Below the pieces are notes generated by a model. The model made no database searches, was not told the origin of the DNA, and saw only the letters and a program-made list of their open reading frames with translations. Positions 1,495 through 1,644 of a stretch of DNA of 64,000 nt are shown here, in pieces. Source of the stretch: Mesorhizobium sp. M1E.F.Ca.ET.045.02.1.1 (GTDB taxonomy: Bacteria; Pseudomonadota; Alphaproteobacteria; Rhizobiales; Rhizobiaceae). Both the position numbers and the translations under genes were made by a program. Position 1 is the stretch's first letter. Every line of letters starts with the position of its first letter. The DNA lies in assembly GCF_003952485.1 (NCBI RefSeq), contig NZ_CP034447.1, forward strand, positions 5,842,501-5,906,500, read 5' to 3'.

Positions 1495-1644
1495 TGCATG
1501 TTGGGACAGCGGCTATTTGTGCAAGATAGCTGCACTCCCCGACAGATGGCCGTCCGCCGGGGAGTGGACGGATGGGACCGTACACCCCTTGGCGTGAACC
1601 GCGGTTGAGCAAGGTCCATTCGTTCTCGCACGGGTCCTGAACAG
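1495..1644 (+). ncRNA. Candidate bridge-RNA region in the IS110 left end
   Basis: This non-coding leader has a 9-bp perfect stem, CACTCCCCG (1533-1541) with CGGGGAGTG (1558-1566). The 16-nt loop begins with ACAGATG, the same seven bases that precede the CT core at the element's right end (2646-2652). Downstream, ACACCCCT (1582-1589) is identical to the left flank of the insertion site (1487-1494), and CGGATG (1569-1574) is complementary to the right flank (2655-2660). IS110 elements are known to encode a bridge RNA in a non-coding end, with loops pairing to target and donor. The strand and ends of the transcript cannot be set from sequence; plus is assumed because it matches the transposase. 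Confidence 0.5.

Follow-up and report, generated by a model that had tools for sequence, protein, structure and literature searches.

A 64,000-nucleotide stretch of the Mesorhizobium sp. M1E.F.Ca.ET.045.02.1.1 genome (hereafter the window) carries an insertion sequence (IS) of the IS110 group at 1493-2652. The leader between the left end of this element and its recombinase gene very probably encodes an IS110-type bridge RNA that has its guides in the canonical order and is aimed at a dispersed chromosomal repeat. On sequence grounds, the element is a member of the IS110 group, IS621-like, and would be a new example of a known bridge-RNA system whose unusual feature is the overlap of a guide with the likely recombinase start. 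A preliminary description of this DNA had already proposed that the leader encodes such an RNA directed at a dispersed repeat. Guide matches in relatives and covariation bear that proposal out, although they support a different arrangement of guides from the one it offered.

The element, identified with Pfam, is 1160 bp long, from the left core CT (1493-1494) to the base preceding the right core CT (2653-2654); it and the features below lie on the plus strand unless stated otherwise. The recombinase gene occupies 1666-2637, giving 323 amino acids (aa) from the start favored here; an open reading frame (ORF) with an ATG is open from 1645 and would give 330 aa with that other start. Either size falls inside the IS110-group range of 300-460 aa. 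The protein carries PF01548 (DEDD RuvC-like) and PF02371 domains in Pfam and matches the NCBIfam entry 'IS110 family RNA-guided transposase'; at E 0.001 it has two solved relatives, ISCro4 (2e-34) and IS621 (1.2e-32). The G--P----SG motif described for the IS110 C-terminal domain (PMC11187229) is present in the translation as GLAPVAHDSG. The left end is long and the right end short, with 171 bp from the core to ATG 1666 and 15 bp from the stop codon to the core. The genome holds two near-identical copies (2 differences in 1162 bases), both 1160 bp long, and one right-end remnant.

Guides of the predicted bridge RNA

The predicted bridge RNA spans 1508-1685, its 5' end placed from the circle promoter described below and its 3' end from conservation, both approximately. 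The left target guide (LTG), ACACCCCT at 1582-1589, equals the left flank of the insertion at 1487-1494, part of the left half of the interrupted target (GGAACACCCCT, 1484-1494), which ends in the core CT. The right target guide (RTG), CGGTTGAG at 1602-1609, is, apart from one mismatch, the reverse complement of CTCATCCG; a perfect version, CGGATGAG, is found in two aligned leaders (L008 and L046). The left donor guide (LDG), ACAGATGAT at 1641-1649, opens with ACAGATG (1641-1647), identical to the right end of the element at 2646-2652, where left donor, core CT (2653-2654) and right target CATCCGGC follow one another over 2646-2662. The right donor guide (RDG), CATGCAAG at 1665-1672, is the exact reverse complement of CTTGCATG (1493-1500), which overlaps the right donor TGCATGTT (1495-1502), and it includes the probable start codon ATG at 1666-1668. 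The order along the leader is thus LTG-RTG-LDG-RDG, and in the target part a bottom-strand match (1582-1589) precedes a top-strand match (1602-1609). The preliminary description ended the RNA at 1644, short of the roughly 1685 predicted here, and it lacked both conserved donor guides, the second ACAGATG (1641-1647) and CATGCAAG, which lie at or past that position.

Relatives were taken from genomes and plasmids, and their leaders were read. Of 96 loci, 83 were kept; 8 were dropped as duplicate, truncated or broken and 5 for want of a recognizable donor-guide motif. Among the 83, 61 distinct elements have both donor parts, and their donor guides agree with the element's own donor at a mean of 6.79 of 7 positions (53 exact), compared with a permuted mean of 5.12 and a maximum of 5.72 in 2000 permutations. 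Target guides behave likewise: over 61 distinct pairs the own target scores 12.72 of 15, the permuted mean is 9.56, and the largest of 1000 permutations reaches 10.26. In 27 of the 61 pairs, the element's own leader outscores every foreign leader with a different target. Among viral contigs, 13 stretches matched the search pattern, with no confirmed relative among them.

Multi-copy elements point the same way. The preliminary description would have been contradicted by one unchanged leader at unrelated sites; instead, copies within a genome share a motif, with 44 copies in 9 genomes having bases beside the core in common while the outer flanks diverge in most sets. Six of the nine sets have a single leader version, G521 and G418 have two, and G645 has four. 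The left side of G732 is loose, with 2 of 6 bases before the core invariant over five copies. For four sets (G137, G645, G521 and G418), the common sequence extends past the guides to one or both sides, the target there being a portion of a longer repeat. As a separate observation, the left end in the leader of L062 is tandemly doubled (CTTGCATATTGGATAGGC twice), as though one end had been duplicated.

From these matches we infer the following course. Excision would bring the element ends together across the CT core and thereby recreate a promoter, TTGACA-17-CATGTT (6/6 and 3/6 consensus matches), whose -35 at 2634-2639 overlaps the recombinase stop codon and whose predicted -10 is CATGTT at 1497-1502. 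The best -35/-10 spacing is 17 at 52 of 57 distinct junctions, where only spacings of 16-18 were allowed and no shuffled control was included. Scanning the inserted form for consensus promoters over 1380-2780 gave a single minus-strand site and nothing at the left end, in keeping with a promoter that is present in the circle alone. From the leader, the junction promoter would produce a bridge RNA roughly 180 nt long. Its target-binding loop (LTG 1582-1589, RTG 1602-1609) would pair with AACACCC-CT-CATCCG of the repeat and its donor-binding loop (LDG 1641-1649, RDG 1665-1672) with the joined ends of the element, and strand exchange at the CT core would be carried out by the recombinase, presumably bound to the RNA. 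The start region of the recombinase gene would, in this clade, also fall within the donor-binding loop.

Several features recall IS621, which has a left-end RNA, a CT core, a target loop before the donor loop and a left guide 5' of the right one in each; a circle-junction promoter, predicted here, and a target within a dispersed repeat, a repetitive extragenic palindromic (REP) element in the case of IS621, are further likenesses (PMC11208160). The target and donor sequences of IS621 are not those of the window element, and its RNA was placed in the non-coding left end, whereas here the likely start of the recombinase gene and the donor loop overlap; flanks in the IS621 survey took in 50 bp of coding sequence (PMC11208160). 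The ISEc21 seekRNA is likewise of IS110 type, comes from the upstream region, carries a bottom-strand match 5' of a top-strand match and is associated with a junction promoter (PMC11187229). ISEc21 differs in its target, its longer transposase (358 aa) and its main seekRNA of 74 nt, and donor guides are undescribed in the parts of that article covered (PMC11187229). A closer relative, at a locus named ISMno29 in RefSeq (L044), shares 52% protein identity, the donor end ACAGATG, the guide layout and an ATG within the guide, and differs in its target (CTCCCT-CT-TTCCCGG rather than AACACCC-CT-CATCCG). Another IS110 element, ISRm19 of Sinorhizobium meliloti, is reported to lie within a rhizobial REP in all four copies described (PMC1525189).

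Leader structure and competing explanations

A structure common to the leaders was derived from an alignment of 16 leaders of the closest clade, the window included. In these, 24 of 36 base pairs are changed on both sides, and 92.7% of cells are paired, compared with 33.0-50.3% when the structure is slid along the alignment; none of 500 shuffles reaches the observed value. Hairpin H1 (1509-1533, with 1509-1514 pairing with 1528-1533; window coordinates converted by hand from alignment columns) has 5 of 6 pairs changed on both sides and 80.2% of cells paired. Hairpin H2 (1534-1565) pairs 1534-1547 with 1552-1565, with two mismatches in the window and 12 of 14 pairs changed on both sides, and includes an ACAGATG. 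The target-binding loop (1567-1624) is closed by stem H3, in which 1567-1575 and 1577-1579 pair with 1613-1624; 7 of its 12 pairs are changed on both sides, 99.0% of cells are paired, and the string CGGATG lies within it. The donor-binding loop carries an apical GGGA/TCCC hairpin, helix 4 (1651-1663), which shows no covariation because it is nearly invariant; GGGGAG at 1650-1655 might serve as a Shine-Dalgarno sequence.

A covariance model, R1, built from the same 16 leaders, matches the window at 1493-1686 with 194.7 bits, the window being part of the model; its three other matches in the window are weak (E 0.022, 0.067 and 2.5), and one of them is the reverse strand of H2. Over this genome, with 150 of 3154 first-look candidates scored, R1 finds only the two element copies at E up to 1. 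Of 146 genomes of the genus, 33 contain a match, and 7 of 385 genomes of the class pass E 1e-8, this genome counted in both. Although the model uses no protein, 27 of 29 newly fetched loci have IS110 transposase similarity, a count in which L107 is weak and distant, several loci are partial or near-identical and three are records used before. Two R1 matches, L119 and L127, lack IS110 protein similarity in the fetched stretch, and L127 lies near a contig end. The match shared by L008 and L099 combines a full-length leader with a truncated transposase and a one-base loss right after the donor guide; it is possibly a bridge-RNA-only remnant at the repeat that holds the window element.

The layout offered in the preliminary description used a perfect 9-bp hairpin (1533-1541/1558-1566), followed by ACAGATG at 1542-1548 as donor guide, CGGATG at 1569-1574 as right target guide and ACACCCCT as left target guide, which placed the donor loop first. 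All of these strings exist: ACAGATG recurs at 2646-2652 before the CT core at 2653-2654, CGGATG is the reverse complement of 2655-2660, and ACACCCCT, equal to 1487-1494, is a genuine guide. In 5000 dinucleotide shuffles of 1495-1685, ACACCCCT arises by chance in 0.2%, ACAGATG in 2.1% and CGGATG in 10.9%; the three strings together arise in 0 of 5000, and so do all guides of the layout favored here, so relatives rather than shuffling decide between the two. In the window alone, CGGATG fits the right flank better (6/6) than the proposed RTG does (5/6). Across the relatives, the hairpin ACAGATG is exact in the window alone (1 of 16 aligned leaders, with 6/7 in three), even though the donor end is conserved. 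CGGATG belongs to a covarying stem, as H2 and H3 both are, and its columns score at least 5/6 against the element's own right flank in 2 of 14 (the window and L046) compared with 12 of 14 for the RTG; the corresponding means are 3.29/6 for the H3 stretch and 5.07/6 for the RTG columns (n=14). The donor-first layout is therefore extremely improbable, and the strand and loop order that had puzzled the preliminary description arose because two of its matches are coincidental. Short complementary strings chosen by eye may be coincidence even beside a real guide.

An element of the IS1111 group would suit the order CGGATG-then-ACACCCCT, and a few members of that group with an upstream non-coding region have been reported (PMC11187229). 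Such an element would be expected to place the top-strand match before the bottom-strand match, and the reverse is found here, as in ISEc21, an IS110-type element whose strand order in the target part is opposite to that of the IS1111 elements tested in the same study (PMC11187229). The closest solved relatives are ISCro4 and IS621, and the subterminal inverted repeats of IS1111 (7-17 bp) were not found between the first and last 50 bases in an ungapped comparison, which gave no inverted match of 6-7 bases without mismatch, of 8-11 bases with one or of 12-14 bases with two. The whole element contains 82 inverted-repeat pairs, and none of the 25 longest joins both ends. Assignment to IS1111 is thus hardly credible. 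A further explanation is that the leader is simply a structured 5' untranslated region (UTR) controlling transposase translation, with the flank matches coincidental. The Shine-Dalgarno-like GGGGAG and an ATG do lie within the structure, and in ISPpu9 translation is reportedly hindered by a structured 5' UTR of tnp (PMC8450116). The permutation tests and the target motifs of multi-copy sets make a UTR role on its own very unlikely, although both roles are compatible.

Some observations count against the bridge-RNA reading and its canonical layout. The RTG of the window is mismatched at one base in both genome copies, an equally good match occurs in 14.4% of shuffled leaders, and the LDG carries an A in place of the core C. 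Five target pairs (L013, L089, L065, L048 and L092) score 9-10/15, as foreign pairs do. The target scan was position-free, and the best left match falls off the aligned guide in rows such as L041, L042, L026 and L039. The end motifs used for locating elements were read from the same sequences as were tested, which makes the absolute scores favorable and affects the permutation comparison less. Folded alone, the RNA of the window is not unusually stable (z -1.49; 15 of 200 shuffles as stable), and its minimum-free-energy structure differs from the comparative one; the structured RNA anticipated in the preliminary description is thus predicted from comparison of leaders and not from the window sequence by itself. 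An Rfam search of window 1-6000 at E up to 1 gave four matches, none in the leader.

Donor loop and recombinase start

The overlap was followed in the 14 distinct members with donor end ACAGATG, the window included. All 14 have an in-frame ATG within the donor loop; in 11 it falls in the right donor guide, and in the other three (L045, L061 and L093) it lies nine bases farther upstream. Six members (L042, L006, L059, L062, L061 and L045) lack any ATG, GTG or TTG from the guide to the GIDV motif; barring a rare start codon, their translation has to start inside the loop or upstream of it. Annotated starts agree with the ATG in the guide for five plasmid relatives (L040-L044) and with the ATG before the guide for L045 and L093. 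The exact start is not fixed, because the 11 members with an ATG in the guide have a further in-frame ATG or GTG upstream within the loop. Start 1666 in the window is taken from the relatives, since a downstream ATG (+26) and TTG (+8) exist. In the truncated element L008, the one-base loss breaks the recombinase frame.

Among the other 43 elements, those outside this clade, an ATG or GTG lies 1-30 bases after the loop in 42; the remaining one, L073, is a flagging error in which the CAAG taken as the guide end sits inside the coding sequence. Five of the 42 (L063, L066, L067, L069 and L027) also have an in-frame ATG in the loop.

In the portions of the literature searched, from which most subscription journals and all bioRxiv preprints were absent, no mention was found of a bridge RNA overlapping a start codon. 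The overlap between donor loop and recombinase start in this clade is a possible novelty. It is conceivable, though slightly less than an even prospect, that the bridge RNA and the recombinase message form one overlapping unit in which binding of the donor loop by the recombinase would prevent translation of the enzyme itself and so link its level to that of free bridge RNA. Regulation in the tnp 5' region has a precedent in the translation-hindering 5' UTR of ISPpu9. With donor guide and start codon overlapping, it becomes possible to test whether a guide RNA also regulates its own enzyme.

The target repeat and its surroundings

Both copies of the element interrupt AACACCC-CT-CATCCG. The genome contains 84 uninterrupted exact copies of AACACCCCTCATCCG, 42 on each strand, and none of the reversed control pattern. 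Two copies at the CT of one motif, beside 84 intact sites, indicate that insertion takes place at the core dinucleotide and duplicates no more of the target. The window itself includes three exact copies and one with a single mismatch, among them uninterrupted exact copies on the minus strand at 1442-1456, adjoining the element, and at 3643-3657. A composite palindromic repeat with inverted AACACCCCTCATCCG copies occurs at 1380-1495, 2653-2790 and 3590-3720. Counted by hand, inverted AACACCCCTCATCCG pairs number 15 (30 of the 84 copies), 43-83 bases apart from start to start. The dispersed repeat also seems to be the source of a gene's end: the C-terminal tail APPSPLVG of a cytochrome c assembly ORF (PF01578) appears to be read from the repeat at 2759-2800 (minus strand).

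Other IS110 elements sit in the same repeat. The donor end is ACGGTTG in G418 (6 copies) and L050, whose proteins are about 42% identical to the window recombinase, and ACAGTTG in G412 (2 copies), at 36% identity. The guides of all three match or nearly match the repeat, G412 standing outside the 61-pair count; L039 is perhaps a further case, with a weaker match. In a midpoint-rooted FastTree phylogeny of 65 proteins, G418, L050 and G412 share a branch separate from the window's clade, L039 belongs to a third, and each has neighbors with different targets. This repeat is the target of at least two IS110 lineages, possibly three, that differ in donor end. The simplest interpretation is that these lineages came to target the abundant repeat independently, and exchange of target loops may be an alternative source of the shared target. 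Donor ends largely track the recombinase tree, and targets vary between close relatives. These elements provide natural material for studying how bridge-RNA guides change.

At 317-1384, 5' of the element, lies a gene whose domains resemble those of alanine racemase and D-serine dehydratase. Just upstream of this gene, at 230-318 on the minus strand, lies a sub-threshold Rfam match to BASRCI27, a Brucella small RNA family (38.2 bits, gathering threshold 59.8, E 9.3e-06), and the matched part includes a strong central hairpin.
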